A stretch of DNA of 47,048 nucleotides. Source: an uncultured Ruminococcus sp. (GTDB lineage Bacteria; Bacillota; Clostridia; Oscillospirales; Ruminococcaceae). Below are positions 1,397 through 8,004 of the stretch, piece by piece. The notes beneath the pieces are model-generated. The model saw nothing but the letters and a program-made list of their open reading frames with translations. It was not told the origin of the DNA and searched no databases. Numbering within the stretch: position 1 is the stretch's first letter; each line of letters begins with the position of its first letter. The stretch lies in contig CAMZZN010000001.1 of assembly GCA_947345935.1 (NCBI GenBank), positions 1-47,048 on the forward strand, written 5' to 3'. Made by a program: the position numbers and the translations under genes.

Positions 1397-2881
1397 ATGG
1401 GAAAGCCTACAGGATTTATTGATTATAAAAGACTCGAAAGCAGCGCCGCCGAGCCTGCGGAGAGAATAAAGAATTTCAATGAGTTCCATAAGCCTCTTGG
1501 AAATGAAAAACGAAGGGAACAGGCTGCACGCTGTATGGATTGCGGCGTTCCGTTCTGCCAGAACGGAAAAATGCTCTGCGGTATGATTTCAGGCTGTCCT
1601 CTTAACAATCTTATTCCCGAATGGAACGATCTTCTTTACCACGACCATAAAGAGCAGGCGCTCCGCCGTCTGCTCATGACGAACAACTTTCCGGAGTTTA
1701 CTTCACGTGTATGTCCGGCGCTCTGCGAAAAGGCGTGTACCTGCGGTCTTAACGGCGACCCTGTTGCTGTAAGGGAAAACGAGTTTGCAATCATTGAAAA
1801 CGGTTTTGCAGAGGGACTTATCAAGCCGCAGATCCCCGATGTGAGGAGCAGCAAGAAGATTGCCGTTATCGGTTCGGGTCCGGCTGGTCTGGCTGCGGCT
1901 GATACTCTTAACAGGAGAGGACATAACGTGACGGTGTTTGAGCGTTCTGATAGGCCAGGCGGATTGCTTATGTATGGTATTCCGAATATGAAGCTGGAAA
2001 AGCACATAATTATGCGCCGTGTAGAGCTTATGAAGGCCGAGGGAGTCGTGTTTGTTACAAATGCAGATGTCGGAAAGAGCATAAAGGCAAGCGACATCAT
2101 GGCTGAGTACGACGCTGTAATTCTTGCCTGCGGTTCTTCCAATCCACGTGATATCAAGGCTGAAGGACGTGACGCACAGGGAATATATTTTGCCGTGGAT
2201 TTTCTGAAAGCCACCACCAAAAGCCTTCTCGATTCAAATTTGCAGGACGGAAATTATATTTCTGCAAAAGATAAAGATGTAGTAATAATCGGCGGCGGAG
2301 ATACTGGCAACGACTGTGTCGGAACTTCTGTAAGGCATGGATGCAGATCTGTTGTTCAGCTTGAAATGATGCCGAAGCTTCCGGATGAAAGAACTGAAGA
2401 TAATCCCTGGCCGGAATGGCCGAAGGTCTGCAAGACGGATTACGGTCAGGAGGAAGCCATAGCTGTTTTCGGCAGCGACCCCAGAGTATATCAGACGACC
2501 GTTAAGGAATTCGTTAAGGACGAAAACGGCGCTTTAAGCGCAGTAAAGACGGTAAGGCTTGAATTTGTTTCTGATCCTGAAACAGGAAGAAAGATTCCGA
2601 AAGAAGTTCCCGGCAGCGAGGAGGTCATTCCCTGTCAGCTCTGTCTGATAGCAGCCGGATTTCTGGGAGCTCAGCAGTATGTTGCAGACGCTTTCGGTAC
2701 GGAGCTTGACGGACGTACAAATGTAAGAACGGAAAGCGGACGTTTTTATACCAATGCGGAAAAAGTTTTTACGGCAGGAGATATGCATATAGGTCAGTCG
2801 CTTGTGGTAAGAGCGATCAGAGAGGGCAGAGACGCTGCCAGGGAAGCGGATGAATATCTTATGGGATATACGAATTTGTAA
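1397..2881 (+). CDS. gltD: Glutamate synthase small subunit
   Basis: This 494-residue protein is the electron-donating subunit of NADPH-dependent glutamate synthase. It takes electrons from NADPH through FAD and Fe-S clusters to GltB. N-terminal cysteine clusters for the 4Fe-4S centres are visible (CMDCGVPFCQ, then GCPLNN, and CPALCEKACTCGLNG). Next comes an FAD-binding GxGxxG (VIGSGPAGLAAADTL, about residues 154-168), and then a second dinucleotide-binding motif for NADPH (VVIIGGGDTGNDC, about 295-307). The length is normal for the family. The ATG follows AAGGAGG by 6 nt. It sits 3 nt after gltB and 15 nt before the glutamine synthetase-like gene, so the block reads as one operon. Confidence 0.97.
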   Translation: MGKPTGFIDYKRLESSAAEPAERIKNFNEFHKPLGNEKRREQAARCMDCGVPFCQNGKMLCGMISGCPLNNLIPEWNDLLYHDHKEQALRRLLMTNNFPEFTSRVCPALCEKACTCGLNGDPVAVRENEFAIIENGFAEGLIKPQIPDVRSSKKIAVIGSGPAGLAAADTLNRRGHNVTVFERSDRPGGLLMYGIPNMKLEKHIIMRRVELMKAEGVVFVTNADVGKSIKASDIMAEYDAVILACGSSNPRDIKAEGRDAQGIYFAVDFLKATTKSLLDSNLQDGNYISAKDKDVVIIGGGDTGNDCVGTSVRHGCRSVVQLEMMPKLPDERTEDNPWPEWPKVCKTDYGQEEAIAVFGSDPRVYQTTVKEFVKDENGALSAVKTVRLEFVSDPETGRKIPKEVPGSEEVIPCQLCLIAAGFLGAQQYVADAFGTELDGRTNVRTESGRFYTNAEKVFTAGDMHIGQSLVVRAIREGRDAAREADEYLMGYTNL

Positions 2882-2896: not shown

Positions 2897-4174
2897 ATGG
2901 TCTATTCAGAAAACGAGATACTTCAGTATATAGATGAAAACGACGTAAAGTTTGTAAAGCTCACTTTTTGCAGTCTGGACGGGAAACTAAAGAATATTTC
3001 TGTTCTGTCATCGGAAATGGCAGCAGTTTTTGAAAGAGGAATACGCATTACTGCCGGAAAGATAAAGGGATTTTCGATTGCCGGAGGACGTGATATTTTC
3101 CTTTTTCCCGACTCCGGAACAATGACGATCCTCCCGTGGAGGCCCCAGCATGGCAGGGTTATCAGGATGTTCTGTTACATCAGGTATGCGGACGGTACTC
3201 CGTTCGAGGGGGACAGCAGATGGTTTCTGAAAAAGGCAATGAAAGAGGCTGTCGGCAAAGGCTATTGTTTCCGCTTCGGGACGTCAAGCGAGTTTACTAT
3301 TTTCAGGAACGATGAAAGTGGACTTCCGACCAAGACGCCCCATGATTTTGCGGGATACTGCGACATTGCCCCTGATGACAGAGGGGAAAATATACGCCGT
3401 GACGTGTGCCTTACGCTTGAGCAGATGGGAATACATCCGGTATCGTCACGTCATGAAAGCGGTTTCGGACAGCATGAAATAGACTTCAATGCGTCTTCTG
3501 CACTTAAAGCTGCCGATACTTTTCTGAGTTTTAAATCAGCGGTAAAATCCGTTGCTGAAAGAAATGGAGTCCACGCAAGCTTTATGCCAAAGCCTCTGCG
3601 TGACGCCTGCGGCAATGGTATGCATATAGCGTTCAATGTTTTTCCGGGCGGCGATTTTATCGAGGAGAGAGCCTGTGAGCCTGAAGGAGAACTGAACTAT
3701 GCGGCAGCCGGAGTTATGAAATATATCCGTGAATTTTCTCTTTTTACAAATTCGACCGTGAATTCATATAAACGTTTGGGAGAATTTTCCGCCCCCAGAA
3801 ATATAGTGTGGTCAGACGAGGAGGAAGATCAGCTTATCATGATGAACGTGAACGGCGCTGATTCTCCTGTTGAACTTAGAGCTGCCGACTGCGCCTGCAA
3901 TCCCTATTTTGTGTTTGGTCTTATTATATACGCCGCTGTGGAGGGGATCGAGAATAATTTACAGCTCCCTGAGAAAAACAGCGGCAGCGAAAAGCTTCCC
4001 ATGAATCTTGAGGAGGCGGCACAGTGCGCAGAACAGTCGGAGTTTCTGAAAAAATATATTCCCAAAGCTGTGCTGGAGCAGTATGTTCATGCAAAGAAAT
4101 CCGAGTGGAAGGAATATTCCGGGGCATACGACAAGGAAGCGTTTGAAGATCAGAAATATTTCTGTAGTTTGTGA
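2897..4174 (+). CDS. Divergent glutamine synthetase-like protein, catalytic residues altered
   Basis: A 425-residue protein that aligns along its whole length with type I-alpha glutamine synthetase (GlnA). It keeps the beta-grasp/catalytic layout and motifs such as GQHEIDF (191-197), MPKPL (230-234), GMH (241-243) and NSYKRL (289-294). Compared from memory with Bacillus subtilis GlnA, several catalytic positions differ. The DGSSIEGF loop is TAGKIKGF (52-59), so the ammonium-site Asp is Thr52. GPEPEF is GTSSEF (128-133), so one metal Glu is Ser130. The flap GYEAP is EFSAP, so its Glu is Ser298. The NRSPLIR stretch is EEDQLIM, so both Arg are lost (Glu310, Met315). Glu187, Glu194, His243, Arg293, Glu326 and Arg328 remain. 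It may therefore be inactive, regulatory or active on another substrate. RBS AGGAGG; an ANTAR regulator gene follows within 15 nt. Confidence 0.85.
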   Translation: MVYSENEILQYIDENDVKFVKLTFCSLDGKLKNISVLSSEMAAVFERGIRITAGKIKGFSIAGGRDIFLFPDSGTMTILPWRPQHGRVIRMFCYIRYADGTPFEGDSRWFLKKAMKEAVGKGYCFRFGTSSEFTIFRNDESGLPTKTPHDFAGYCDIAPDDRGENIRRDVCLTLEQMGIHPVSSRHESGFGQHEIDFNASSALKAADTFLSFKSAVKSVAERNGVHASFMPKPLRDACGNGMHIAFNVFPGGDFIEERACEPEGELNYAAAGVMKYIREFSLFTNSTVNSYKRLGEFSAPRNIVWSDEEEDQLIMMNVNGADSPVELRAADCACNPYFVFGLIIYAAVEGIENNLQLPEKNSGSEKLPMNLEEAAQCAEQSEFLKKYIPKAVLEQYVHAKKSEWKEYSGAYDKEAFEDQKYFCSL

Positions 4175-4188
4175 TCCGGAGGTTTAGC

Positions 4189-4770
4189 GTGGAAAATGTC
4201 CTAATTGTTTCAGGAAATAAAAGCGCCGCTGAAGCGCTCTCCGGATTTATAAGGGAATCGTTTCAATGCAGCATCAGAGCGGTAGAGTCGGGATATCAGG
4301 CAAAAAATATTTTCAGCAGTGATCCGTCGCTGGATCTTGTCATTATAAATACGCCCCTTATAGATGAATCAGGTATAGATCTTGCAGAGTTTATCACAGA
4401 AAACACCGCCGCCGGCTGCATTCTTATAATAAAGCCTGAAAAAGCCGAAAAGACTTCTGAGCGTGCGGAAAAAAGCGGCGTGATCGTCATGCTGCGCCCG
4501 GTAAACAGAGGATTGCTGTATCAGCTTGTGAAAACGGCGGATATAGCGGTCAGGCGTTCTCTGAAGTTTTATCAGGAAAAGCAGAGACTTGAGCGCAGAA
4601 TAGAAGAGATAAAGACCATTGACAAGGCGAAGTTCATGCTTATGGAATACAAATCAATGACAGAGGCGGAGGCTCATGAATATCTTGAGAAGTACGCCAT
4701 GAATAAGCGCAAGAAAAAATATATTGCCGCACTCGAACTGATCGACAGAATCCACGAGCAGTATATGTGA
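4189..4770 (+). CDS. ANTAR-domain regulator with degenerate receiver domain
   Basis: A 193-residue two-domain protein. Residues 1-120 have the pattern of a response-regulator receiver and residues about 136-193 are an ANTAR RNA-binding domain (RRIEEIKTIDKAKFMLME, then EAEAHEYLEKYAMNKRKK). ANTAR proteins act as transcription antiterminators that bind paired hairpins in leader RNAs, often of nitrogen genes. The receiver looks unable to accept phosphate: the aspartate position is Asn54 (LVIINTPL), the N-terminal acidic pair is absent (VLIVSGN), and the usual Lys is Arg in MLRP. The start is taken as GTG 4189 because CCGGAGG ends 6 nt before it. An upstream GTG at 4171 overlaps the previous stop and has no such site. 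Regulators of this type lie next to glnA in some Clostridia, so a nitrogen-control role is likely; its RNA targets are not visible here. Confidence 0.88.
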   Translation: MENVLIVSGNKSAAEALSGFIRESFQCSIRAVESGYQAKNIFSSDPSLDLVIINTPLIDESGIDLAEFITENTAAGCILIIKPEKAEKTSERAEKSGVIVMLRPVNRGLLYQLVKTADIAVRRSLKFYQEKQRLERRIEEIKTIDKAKFMLMEYKSMTEAEAHEYLEKYAMNKRKKKYIAALELIDRIHEQYM

Positions 4771-4793: not shown

Positions 4794-6302
4794 GTGGTTG
4801 CTATATTTGATACAATACATGAAGAATGCGGAGTATTCGGCATTTATGAAAAGAACCGTGCGGATGTGGCGTCGTCGGCTTATTTCGGCTTGTATGCGCT
4901 CCAGCACCGTGGACAGGAAAGCTGCGGTATCGCAGTCAGCGACGACGGAGTTTTCCGTCATAAGAGAAACGACGGTCTTGTTTCCGAGGTTTTCGGCAGG
5001 GATGAACTCAAACATCTCGGAAAGGGAAATATGGCGGTGGGACACGTCCGTTATTCCACTACCGGCGGTAAGAATCACAATAATATACAGCCTCTGGTCA
5101 TACGTCATATCAAGGGAAATATGGCTCTTGTCCATAATGGAAACCTTGTTAACGCTGCGGAGCTGAGACGGGATTTTGAAATGTCCGGCGCTATTTTTCA
5201 CGGCACTTCCGACACCGAAGCTATAGCTTATGAGATCGTGCGTGAACGGCTTTCCTGCCGCTCGACGGAAGAAGCGGTGCAGAGAGCTATGCCACGTATA
5301 AAAGGCGCATATTCCTGTATTCTTATGACCGCAACAAAGCTGATAGCTTTCCGTGATCCTGACGGATTCCGTCCGTTGTGCATCGGTAAGACGTCTGACG
5401 GCGCATATGCCGTGGCGTCGGAATCCTGTGCGCTTGAAGCGGTCGGAGCAGAGTTTATCCGGGACGTAAAACCGGGTGAGATTGTCGTTATCGGTGAAAA
5501 CGGTCTGCGCTCGATAACTGCAAACTGTACTGATAAAAGCAATATCTGTATCTTCGAGTATATTTATTTTGCACGTCCCGATTCCGTCATTGAAGGAGTT
5601 TCCGTTCATCATGCCAGACTCCGGGCAGGAGCGATTCTTGCGGAATACAGTCCCGTTGAAGCGGATATCGTCATAGGCGTTCCGGATTCGGGTCTTGATG
5701 CCGCTCTTGGATATTCCCGTGCGAGCGGTATTCCTTATGGCGTAGGCTTTATCAAGAATAAATATATTGGCAGGAGTTTTATCCAGCCGGAGCAGACTCA
5801 GCGTGAAAGCGCCGTGAAGATCAAGCTGAACGCTATAGGCGAATCAGTCAGAAATAAAAGGGTAATAATGATCGACGATTCTATCGTTCGTGGAACAACG
5901 TGCGCCAGAATAGTTCGTTTGCTGAGAGAGGCGGGGGCTAAAGAAGTTCATGTGAGGATATCAAGTCCGCCGTTTATGCATTCGTGTTATTTCGGAACCG
6001 ATATAGATTCAGAGGAAAATCTCATTGCCAGTCAGTGCGTTTCCGTCAAGGATATTTCAGAAAGAATCGGTGCCGATTCTCTTGCATATCTGCCTGTTCA
6101 GGCTCTCGGAGAGCTTATCGGAGAACGGAAGAGCTTTTGCCGGGGCTGTTTTACCGGGGATTATCCCATAGATGTATCAGGCGCAGGCTCTAAAAATAAA
6201 TTTGATAATAAGATTCATAAGGCAGCGCCGCACAAAGATTGTGCCGGAGATGCGCAGCCGATTTTTTCATCAGATTGTACAGAAGTTTCGCAGACATACT
6301 GA
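4794..6302 (+). CDS. purF: Amidophosphoribosyltransferase
   Basis: PurF catalyses the first committed step of purine synthesis, replacing the pyrophosphate of PRPP with ammonia from glutamine. The GTG start at 4794 yields an 11-residue propeptide (MVAIFDTIHEE) before the nucleophile Cys12, the same length as in Bacillus subtilis, which supports this start although the AAGGA site is only 1 nt away. The N-terminal glutaminase domain contains EECGVFGIYE and LQHRGQESCGIA. The PRPP loop is VIMIDDSIVRGTT (about 359-371). Four cysteines expected to hold the regulatory 4Fe-4S cluster of the Bacillus-type enzyme are present: Cys252, Cys398, Cys449 and Cys452. The C-terminal tail past about residue 460 is longer than in B. 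subtilis. It lies 23 nt after the ANTAR gene. Confidence 0.96.
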   Translation: MVAIFDTIHEECGVFGIYEKNRADVASSAYFGLYALQHRGQESCGIAVSDDGVFRHKRNDGLVSEVFGRDELKHLGKGNMAVGHVRYSTTGGKNHNNIQPLVIRHIKGNMALVHNGNLVNAAELRRDFEMSGAIFHGTSDTEAIAYEIVRERLSCRSTEEAVQRAMPRIKGAYSCILMTATKLIAFRDPDGFRPLCIGKTSDGAYAVASESCALEAVGAEFIRDVKPGEIVVIGENGLRSITANCTDKSNICIFEYIYFARPDSVIEGVSVHHARLRAGAILAEYSPVEADIVIGVPDSGLDAALGYSRASGIPYGVGFIKNKYIGRSFIQPEQTQRESAVKIKLNAIGESVRNKRVIMIDDSIVRGTTCARIVRLLREAGAKEVHVRISSPPFMHSCYFGTDIDSEENLIASQCVSVKDISERIGADSLAYLPVQALGELIGERKSFCRGCFTGDYPIDVSGAGSKNKFDNKIHKAAPHKDCAGDAQPIFSSDCTEVSQTY

Positions 6303-6423: not shown

Positions 6424-8004
6424 ATGTGTACTATAATGTGCTGCTGCGGAAAAAAGGATGGTATGTCAAAAGTTGTCCAGGGACTTGAAGCGACTGTTTC
6501 AAGAGGTCCGGACGATCAGAGAATAGAGGAACTGAACGGCGGTGTTATGGGATTTCAGAGACTTTCGATCATGGGGCTTACTCCCGAGGGGATGCAGCCG
6601 TTTTTTCTTGACGGAAGCTATGCTGTCTGCAACGGAGAAATTTACGGTTTTAAAAAACAAAGACAGGCTCTTATCGAAAAGGGATATTCGTTTATAAGCG
6701 ACAGCGACTGCGAGATACTGCTGCCAATGTACAGAGAATATGGTACTGATATGTTCAGTATGCTTGACGCCGAGTTTGCCTGTGTGATATATGACGGTCA
6801 GTCGGATGAATTTATTGCTGCCCGTGATCCTATCGGAATACGTCCGCTTTATTATGGATATGATGCAGACGGACAGATCATATTTGCCAGCGAAGCGAAG
6901 AATCTAGTGAAGCTTTGCGAAAAAGTAATGCCCTTTCCTCCCGGACACTACTGGAAGAACGGGGAGTTCATCTGCTACTGCGACATCACGGCAGTTGACA
7001 ACGTTATCCGTGACGATATGGAAACGGTTTGCAGAAATATTCGTGAAAAGCTTGTTGCAGGCGTTGAAAAGCGTCTTGCGGCGGATGCAAAGGTAGGATT
7101 TCTTCTTTCCGGCGGTCTTGATTCTTCACTGGTCTGCTCGATCGCTCAGAGGAAAAGTGAAGTTCCCATAAAAACATTTGCTATTGGTATGAGCACTGAC
7201 GCTATCGACCTGAAATATGCCAAGGAGGTCGCCGATTATATCGGCAGCGATCACACCGAGGTGATAATTACCAAGGACGATGTTCTGAACGCTCTGGAAA
7301 CGGTCGTTAAGCTTTTGGGAACATATGATATCACGACCATACGTGCCAGCATGGGAATGTATCTTCTCTGTAAAGCCATCCATGAGCAGACGGATATACG
7401 TGTTCTGCTGACCGGTGAAATTTCCGACGAGCTTTTTGGCTACAAGTATACCGATTTTGCACCGTCTGCACAAGAGTTTCAGAAAGAGTCGGTAAAGCGT
7501 GTCAGCGAGCTTCATATGTACGACGTTCTTCGTGCAGACCGCTGTATATCTTCAAATTCCCTTGAAGCACGTGTGCCTTTCGGAGATCTTGATTTCGTGA
7601 AGTACGTTATGGCGGTTGATCCCGAAATGAAGATGAATAAGTACAATAAGGGAAAATATCTGCTTCGTCATGCCTTTGAAGGAGATTATCTCCCGCATAG
7701 CATTCTTTACCGTGAAAAAGCTGCTTTTTCAGATGCTGTAGGTCATTCTATGGTGGATTATCTTAAGGAATACGCCGAGGACCGCTATACACAGGAAGAA
7801 TATGCTGAGGGAATAAAAAAATACGATCACGCCCGTCCGTTTACAAAGGAATCCTTGCTGTATCGTGATATATTTGAAAAGTTCTATCCCGGTCAGAGTG
7901 AAATGGTCATGGACTTCTGGATGCCCAACAAGGAATGGGAGGGCTGTAACGTAAACGATCCTTCAGCCCGTGTGTTGTCTAATTACGGCGAAAGCGGTGT
8001 GTAA
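6424..8004 (+). CDS. asnB: Asparagine synthase (glutamine-hydrolysing)
   Basis: A 526-residue cytoplasmic enzyme that makes asparagine from aspartate, ATP and glutamine. The N-terminal class II glutaminase domain begins with the nucleophile Cys2 (MCTIMCC). It carries SRGPDDQ, CNGEIYGF and ARDPIGIRPLYYG. The C-terminal synthetase domain has the ATP pyrophosphatase loop LLSGGLDSSLV around residue 227-237, and later LTGEISDELFGYKY and EARVPFGD. The length is close to E. coli AsnB (554). The ATG at 6424 gives the required Cys2, so the start is firm although the ribosome binding site is weak. The gene ends only 10 nt from the stop of the convergent phospholipase C-like gene, and its likely terminator lies inside the antisense of that gene at 8149-8183. 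Confidence 0.96.
   Translation: MCTIMCCCGKKDGMSKVVQGLEATVSRGPDDQRIEELNGGVMGFQRLSIMGLTPEGMQPFFLDGSYAVCNGEIYGFKKQRQALIEKGYSFISDSDCEILLPMYREYGTDMFSMLDAEFACVIYDGQSDEFIAARDPIGIRPLYYGYDADGQIIFASEAKNLVKLCEKVMPFPPGHYWKNGEFICYCDITAVDNVIRDDMETVCRNIREKLVAGVEKRLAADAKVGFLLSGGLDSSLVCSIAQRKSEVPIKTFAIGMSTDAIDLKYAKEVADYIGSDHTEVIITKDDVLNALETVVKLLGTYDITTIRASMGMYLLCKAIHEQTDIRVLLTGEISDELFGYKYTDFAPSAQEFQKESVKRVSELHMYDVLRADRCISSNSLEARVPFGDLDFVKYVMAVDPEMKMNKYNKGKYLLRHAFEGDYLPHSILYREKAAFSDAVGHSMVDYLKEYAEDRYTQEEYAEGIKKYDHARPFTKESLLYRDIFEKFYPGQSEMVMDFWMPNKEWEGCNVNDPSARVLSNYGESGV

Follow-up and report, generated by a model that had tools for sequence, protein, structure and literature searches.

A degenerate glutamine synthetase paired with an ANTAR protein as a candidate nitrogen sensor in Ruminococcus

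Species of Ruminococcus are major degraders of fibre in the rumen and gut, and a 47,048-nucleotide stretch of DNA from an uncultured member of the genus (hereafter the window) raises the question of why a glutamine synthetase (GS) homologue that has lost several catalytic residues should be kept within a glutamate synthase operon. An earlier note on this DNA had held the gene to be no normal GS, to be under selection, and to encode, perhaps, a glutamine- or ATP-binding sensor or an enzyme acting on another substrate. After following the gene, which we call copy A, through its orthologues, its neighbours and the leaders of nitrogen genes, we consider it probable that the product is a GS unable to work as a GS, predicted to be catalytically dead, which acts as the ligand sensor in a switch that it forms with the ANTAR antiterminator encoded behind it (Table 1).

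The 425-residue product of copy A carries both the N- and C-terminal GS Pfam domains in profile searches (PF00120, 238 bits), aligns with the Bacillus subtilis GS over residues 3–407, and gives an AlphaFold2 model with a pTM of 0.85 and a mean pLDDT of 77. The GlnA equivalog profile TIGR00653 scores 264 bits on it, below the cut-off of 429, and a domain search found no GSIII_N domain of the type III GS (GlnN, ~700 aa) in copy A. The ANTAR gene likely starts at GTG 4189, behind a GGAGG, rather than at the GTG 4171 of the open reading frame listing, and its product scores 27.5 bits against PF00072, under the cut-off of 30.2.

Table 1. Features of the window, with the paralogue and the leader found elsewhere in the same genome.
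Feature	Location	Strand	Evidence
gltB, 3' part; frame open to contig start	2..1393	+	PF01493, PF01645; translation without stop
gltD, glutamate synthase small subunit, operon of copy A	1397..2881	+	TIGR01317, 669.5 bits
Degenerate GS I-alpha homologue (copy A), putative ligand sensor	2897..4174	+	ORF, Pfam, alignment
Thr52 codon, replaces catalytic Asp (D50 loop)	3050..3052	+	Alignment
Ser130 codon, replaces metal-ligand Glu (GTSSEF for GPEPEF)	3284..3286	+	Alignment
Ser298 codon, replaces flap Glu	3788..3790	+	Alignment
Glu310 codon, replaces active-site Arg	3824..3826	+	Alignment
Met315 codon, replaces active-site Arg; this lineage only	3839..3841	+	Alignment
GGAGG, likely ribosome-binding site of ANTAR gene	4178..4182	+	Sequence
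ANTAR response-regulator-like protein, Asn at phosphoacceptor position	4189..4770	+	PF03861, 53.6 bits; PF00072, 27.5 bits
purF, next downstream	4794..6302	+	TIGR01134, 513 bits
asnB, asparagine synthase	6424..8004	+	NF006949, 624 bits
Copy B, 431-aa GSI-like paralogue	C1:64990-66264	-	PF00120
gltB leader unit of the same genome	G000:C44:16187-16233		Hairpin A1 + G4 overlapping terminator

Throughout, GS sites are given by what we take to be the Salmonella residue numbers, and residues of the window protein by their own. At least 80 named-genome loci carry relatives of copy A, and 66 among these matches were treated as R. flavefaciens-type orthologues; within the same genus, copy A is met at 69–78% identity in 25 of 35 other genomes, many of them incomplete. 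Alignment to the B. subtilis GS, together with the orthologue rows, rules out a misalignment in the earlier note, whose five substitutions (Thr52, Ser130, Ser298, Glu310, and Met315) come out at the same places. Four of these sites are common to the orthologues; the fifth is not, since Met315 recurs in one of 66 (L040, the nearest relative) and the site is otherwise Arg (54), Lys (9), or Val (2). Among the 66 orthologues listed, Asp50 is lost in all 64 that are readable there, Glu129 and the flap Glu327 in all 66, Arg339 (site 310 of the window protein) in 65, Arg355 in all 64 readable, and Ser273 in 56, losses that bear out the view that this is not a normal GS. Kept in all 66 are Arg321, Arg359, Glu220, and Tyr179, and in most of them Glu131 (65), Gly265 (64), Glu212 (64), and His269 (63). 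By alignment the window protein retains Glu132, Glu187, Glu194, His243, Glu326, and Arg328, so that the claim that the other metal ligands stay holds for Glu187, Glu194, His243, and Glu326 in this protein, although Glu326 is gone in 29 of the 66 orthologues.

Pocket roles were assigned by matching residue numbers to a published account of GS (PMC9249791). On that matching, Asp50 and the flap Glu are catalytic, and Arg355 and Ser273, both lost in the orthologues, contact the adenine. Arg321 receives the ligand carboxylate, Glu131 and Gly265 the ligand amine, while Arg359 and His269, both kept, touch phosphate (PMC9249791). When aligned with a catalytic GlnA, copy A falls short at the catalytic Asp, the GPEPEF Glu, the flap Glu, and an active-site Arg. 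As judged from these residues, the phosphoryl-transfer and ammonium machinery is mostly gone, and much of the amino-acid pocket is retained under purifying selection. Between the two ligands that had been put forward, glutamine and ATP, an amino acid is the better supported and ATP the less so, because most of the nucleotide-contact residues are lost.

The genome that holds the window has four PF00120 matches, namely copy A, copy B, and two type III GS (GSIII) genes. The separate glnA or glnN for which the earlier note had advised looking is thus present in the form of the two GSIII genes, whose predicted products can supply glutamine, and no canonical glnA is among the four matches. The same genome has two ANTAR matches, one behind each GSI-like gene, and therefore two GS–ANTAR pairs. 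Both GSI-like copies are degenerate, mostly at different sites: in 25 of 25 rows copy B has lost Glu129, Glu212, His269, and the flap Glu, and has kept Asp50 and Ser53. Both copies occur in 12 of 12 R. flavefaciens-type genomes, A without and B with the D50-loop Asp, and in the R. albus group (L104, L105, L109, L110, L112) there is one GSI-like gene, with the D50-loop Asp kept in 5 of 5.

This complementarity invites the suggestion, which we regard as unlikely, that A and B assemble into mixed rings, with B providing the D50 loop, and so make up one enzyme or one composite sensor. Copy A lacks the Asp50 and Ser53 that B keeps, B lacks the Glu212 and His269 that are mostly kept in A, the distribution over the two groups of genomes follows the same division, and GS active sites sit between subunits (PMC9249791). 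Any mixed site would nevertheless miss Glu129 and the flap Glu, which makes catalysis unlikely; moreover, the correlation between A and B amounts to one event on the tree, and some genomes of the same genus (e.g., G030) show B with no A.

It is also rather improbable that copy A is an active ligase for another amine or acid, akin to a gamma-glutamylpolyamine or gamma-glutamylmethylamide synthetase. GS-fold enzymes of this kind exist and match copy A (glutamate-methylamine ligase 9qur), and Glu131, Glu212, Glu220, and His269 are kept, but the GPEPEF Glu, the flap Glu, and two nucleotide/phosphate Arg are gone in nearly all 66 orthologues, the profiles NF045547 and TIGR03105 reach 160 of 650 and 206 of 470 bits, far under the cut-off, and the ANTAR neighbourhood suits regulation. 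As between the sensor and the other-substrate enzyme that had been proposed for the gene, the ANTAR partner, the second pair, and the leaders described below favour the sensor, a role that we infer.

In each of the 80 named loci among the matches listed, the GS gene is followed by an ANTAR gene in the same orientation. The gap between the two genes is small in most loci, but in five that belong to the R. albus group it measures 294 to 934 bases. No GS–ANTAR fusion in one frame was seen when open-frame lengths in two census tables were compared by eye. Profile searches divide the ANTAR protein into a receiver-like domain and an ANTAR domain. By alignment only, the phosphoacceptor Asp is missing from all 68 copy-A partners (Asn 52, Tyr 13, His 2, Ser 1, with Asn in the window protein) and from all 25 copy-B partners (Asn 19, Cys 4, Ser 1, Phe 1). 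Elsewhere the Asp is present in 3 of 91. All 21 partners of canonical GlnA show Gly, Ser, or Tyr at this column, although their alignment is less certain. Lacking the phosphoacceptor, the partner of copy A is expected to be switched by something other than ordinary phosphorylation. AmiR likewise has a non-phosphorylated pseudo-receiver (PMC3369936), and ANTAR proteins of this type are switched by a ligand-binding partner (PMC3369936; PMC3795266).

The ANTAR protein could instead be switched otherwise, for example by the PII domain of an ammonium transporter (Amt) fusion, with the pseudo-GS acting elsewhere, for example in trimming GSIII activity. We give this little credence. An Amt–PII fusion and a GSIII gene do lie in a linked nitrogen cluster, and 32 of 148 ANTAR matches in the order stand away from any GS, but adjacency to an ANTAR gene is near complete, in the 80 named loci as well as in 93 of the 95 census rows that belong to the GS-like clade.

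With pairs counted only at a dS of 0.05 to 1.2, the median dN/dS of the pseudo-GS is 0.06 (8 usable of 91 pairs from 14 sequences), beside comparison medians of 0.05 over 21 pairs of gltD and 0.07 over 22 pairs of the ANTAR gene, and this ratio, with the losses common to the orthologues, confirms that the gene is under selection. The same ratio, the open frames, and the residues shared across 66 orthologues rule out a decaying pseudogene, to which the absence of several catalytic residues might have pointed.

The reading of copy A as the ligand sensor of its ANTAR partner can be set within the history of the family. In a FastTree tree of 192 rows, which takes in 26 of the 66 A-type rows and omits the fragments L187, L215, and L248, A and B are separate, fully supported clades, and A is sister to a group of R. 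albus and R. bicirculans (support 98). A and B likely lost their residues independently, although the deeper branches are less sure and stop short of proving it; the least number of changes on the tree is 9 for any loss among 11 residues, and 16 without the flap Glu.

A census of the order took in 197 genomes at least 90% complete, with genes counted as GSI-like at E ≤ 1e-40 to the copy A product and as ANTAR-linked when an ANTAR gene followed within 1.5 kb downstream on the same strand. It gave 131 GSI-like places, 116 of them ANTAR-linked and 15 without a near ANTAR gene; 129 places outside the genome of the window were fetched, and two contig-edge fragments were left out of the counts of intact and non-intact genes. 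Taking as non-intact any gene with a change at one or more of the 11 scored residues, ANTAR-linked genes are non-intact in 76 cases and intact in 38 (n = 114), and unlinked genes in 3 and 10 (Fisher p 0.0045). The proposition that ANTAR linkage predicts loss was dropped all the same, because the association is a clade effect: the canonical GlnA rows are intact in 32 of 32 although 21 of the 32 are ANTAR-linked, so that pairing alone is no predictor. Within the GS-like clade, 19 of 160 tree rows are intact. About half of the non-intact genes deviate at the flap Glu alone (mostly Lys), and for those full inactivity is therefore not claimed. At many loci in the range L124–L217, ~400-aa ANTAR-linked GS-like proteins have mostly Lys at the flap Glu and the other scored residues intact, and end ~35 residues before canonical GS.

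All 71 genomes that have GSI-like genes but no intact one carry GSIII, and it is missing from 12 of 44 with an intact GSI (Fisher p 3.4e-6, a value that ignores kinship); of the 19 genomes without GSIII, 7 are also without a GSI-like match at E ≤ 1e-40. The ancestor of the lineage was probably an active GS that already had an ANTAR partner, and catalysis disappeared in the presence of a type III GS. If the sensor reading is true, a gene annotated as glnA would not always make glutamine, a caution that touches the 76 changed genes among the 114 counted above.

The start of the gltB gene in this genome and its leader lie at the end of contig C44 and not on the contig of the window; C44 and C1 presumably join. 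In order, the leader has TTGACA, a TAAAAT box, a hairpin GAAC-AAGGAC-GTTC and, directly after it, a terminator, with bases common to hairpin and terminator. Folding puts the leader in the terminator form (-24.4 kcal/mol, z -9.2) and a short 5' piece by itself in that of the hexaloop hairpin. Divergent from gltB on C44 are genes for an Amt–PII fusion, for a CTP-synthase-like protein (by resemblance), and glnN; the fusion gene (PF00909 + PF00543) is at L038:8169-10109 on the minus strand, with glnN in the same cluster. By eye, two hexaloops stand in the amt leader, CAGC-AAAGGC-GCTG and CATACAC-AAAGGG-GTGTATG.

A pattern scan in which A1, G4, a stem of four pairs, and a terminator overlapping the hairpin were all required was run over 1.26 Mb of named loci and returned 89 hairpin–terminator matches, against 0 in one dinucleotide shuffle; over the pieces of the genome studied here, the gltB site was the only match. 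By signature the genes behind the matches are amt (44, some of them tandem), gltB (30), pyrG (6), glnN (3), a presumed amidotransferase-like gene (2), the pseudo-GS itself (1), L074, which is gltB, and two unexplained, so that 87 of 89 precede one of the named genes, in loci that are centred on the GS–ANTAR cluster and hence favour nitrogen genes. The second loop base, which the scan does not demand, is A in 89 of 89, and a promoter-like match lies within 50 bases upstream in 70. At L089 the hexaloop–terminator unit stands directly before the pseudo-GS, and no gltD was found there. The loop reads AANGAC in 28 of 30 classed gltB leaders and AANGGN in 42 of 44 classed amt leaders, and the two ANTAR proteins might read these different loops.

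A relaxed test, which had no shuffle control, finds the hairpin in 43 of 52 gltB leaders and misses it in nine; strict matches to a second hairpin (P1), as in the dual ANTAR motif, occur in two of the 52, one of them inside gltB. In ten genomes the gltB-type pattern has 8 distinct sites, which lie in six genomes (four have none) and fall 6 at gltB and 2 before asnB-like genes, and the reversed pattern gave 2. The unit also precedes asnB kin in R. flavefaciens FD-1 and 007c, and by eye no hairpin was seen before the asnB, the copy-B GS, or the second GSIII gene of the genome studied here. Both sides of a pair have changed in 29 of 104 cells, once 2 of 28 distinct hairpins are set aside as probable chance matches, a count that lends weak support because the sites were chosen by a scan that demands pairing. 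The gltB, amt, pyrG, glnN, and asnB leaders, in this genome or its relatives, carry an ANTAR-type hexaloop that is predicted to exclude a terminator.

Parts of this arrangement have counterparts elsewhere. Lengsin and other GS-fold non-enzymes of eukaryotes show the same fold without GS activity and are not known to take part in gene control. In Clostridium saccharobutylicum, where glnA and nitR are presumably neighbours, the GS is taken as a working enzyme, whereas here it is degenerate, in two copies, and accompanied by GSIII. AmiC, the partner of AmiR, we take to be of the periplasmic-binding-protein fold. NitR, the ANTAR protein of C. saccharobutylicum, likewise controls GS/GOGAT genes, inducing them on nitrogen limitation (PMC6316151). 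In AmiC–AmiR and NasS–NasT a ligand-binding protein keeps the ANTAR protein inactive until the ligand arrives (PMC3795266), and the adjacent, co-conserved sensor and ANTAR genes and the Asp-less receiver are seen here too; NasS is periplasmic nitrate-binding-like (PMC3795266), whereas the candidate sensor here has the GS fold. The Bacillus GS passes a glutamine signal to GlnR through its flap and D50 loop (PMC9249791), but in the GS–GlnR and GS–TnrA systems of Bacillus and relatives the GS is active and the partners bind DNA rather than RNA. The eut, nas, and ami target RNAs share with the present leaders a loop with A1 and G4 that overlaps an intrinsic terminator, and the published eut element AGCAANGRRGCUY (PMC3369931) differs from the commonest amt-type site, AGCAAGGGAGCTG, in its last base only. 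Published ANTAR sites have two hairpins (PMC3369931; PMC3369936), as in the eut, nas, and ami motif, whereas here there is one, close behind the -10 box. It was already known that ANTAR proteins control nitrogen genes, that glutamate synthase genes can have ANTAR leaders, and that GS can partner a regulator (PMC3369931; PMC6316151; PMC9249791), and a literature search, with subscription papers largely outside it, found no ANTAR protein whose partner is a catalytically dead GS.

The kept pocket, the lost chemistry, an ANTAR protein without a phosphorylation site, and likely targets among nitrogen genes together make the pseudo-GS, most simply, the sensor. With nitrogen plentiful, the pseudo-GS would bind glutamine (or glutamate) and hold the ANTAR protein inactive, and the terminators would form. 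As the amino acid falls, the ANTAR protein would be released and would hold the hexaloop hairpin, letting polymerase read into the operon. We infer the ligand, its binding, and the direction of the switch; NitR induction and the signalling of Bacillus GS to GlnR lead us to expect that it is the ligand-bound pseudo-GS that holds the ANTAR protein. Against glutamine as the ligand, it touches the flap Glu in GS–GlnR structures (PMC9249791), and with that residue lost here glutamate or another acid is possible. Against the sensor reading itself stand the kept Arg359 and His269, which are also phosphate contacts (PMC9249791), the position of the leader on another contig, its single hairpin, the nine gltB leaders without one, the wide gaps in the R. 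albus group, the ANTAR linkage of intact canonical GlnA, and the unlinked GS and ANTAR genes in the order. It is possible, if somewhat doubtful, that a GS-fold clade in the order and some relatives turned from enzymes into nitrogen sensors on more than one occasion, each time with an ANTAR protein that ordinary phosphorylation cannot reach, and that the two sensors of R. flavefaciens read nitrogen for different operons.

In Bacillus, a working GS doubles as a nitrogen sensor. If the sensor reading is true, a related branch would have split the two jobs and kept the sensor only, controlling RNA read-through instead of DNA binding, and a nitrogen signal input would be named for ANTAR antitermination in Ruminococcus. 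The pseudo-GS and its ANTAR protein make up a small purifiable pair with predicted RNA targets, which renders the proposal directly testable.

Two further observations concern the leaders. Hexaloop–terminator units stand in tandem before amt at L066, L081, L082, L083, and L114. None of the three Rfam matches found on seven loci lies in a gltB or amt leader; two are tRNAs, and the third is a T-box leader at L108:1557-1807 on the minus strand, with 111 bits.
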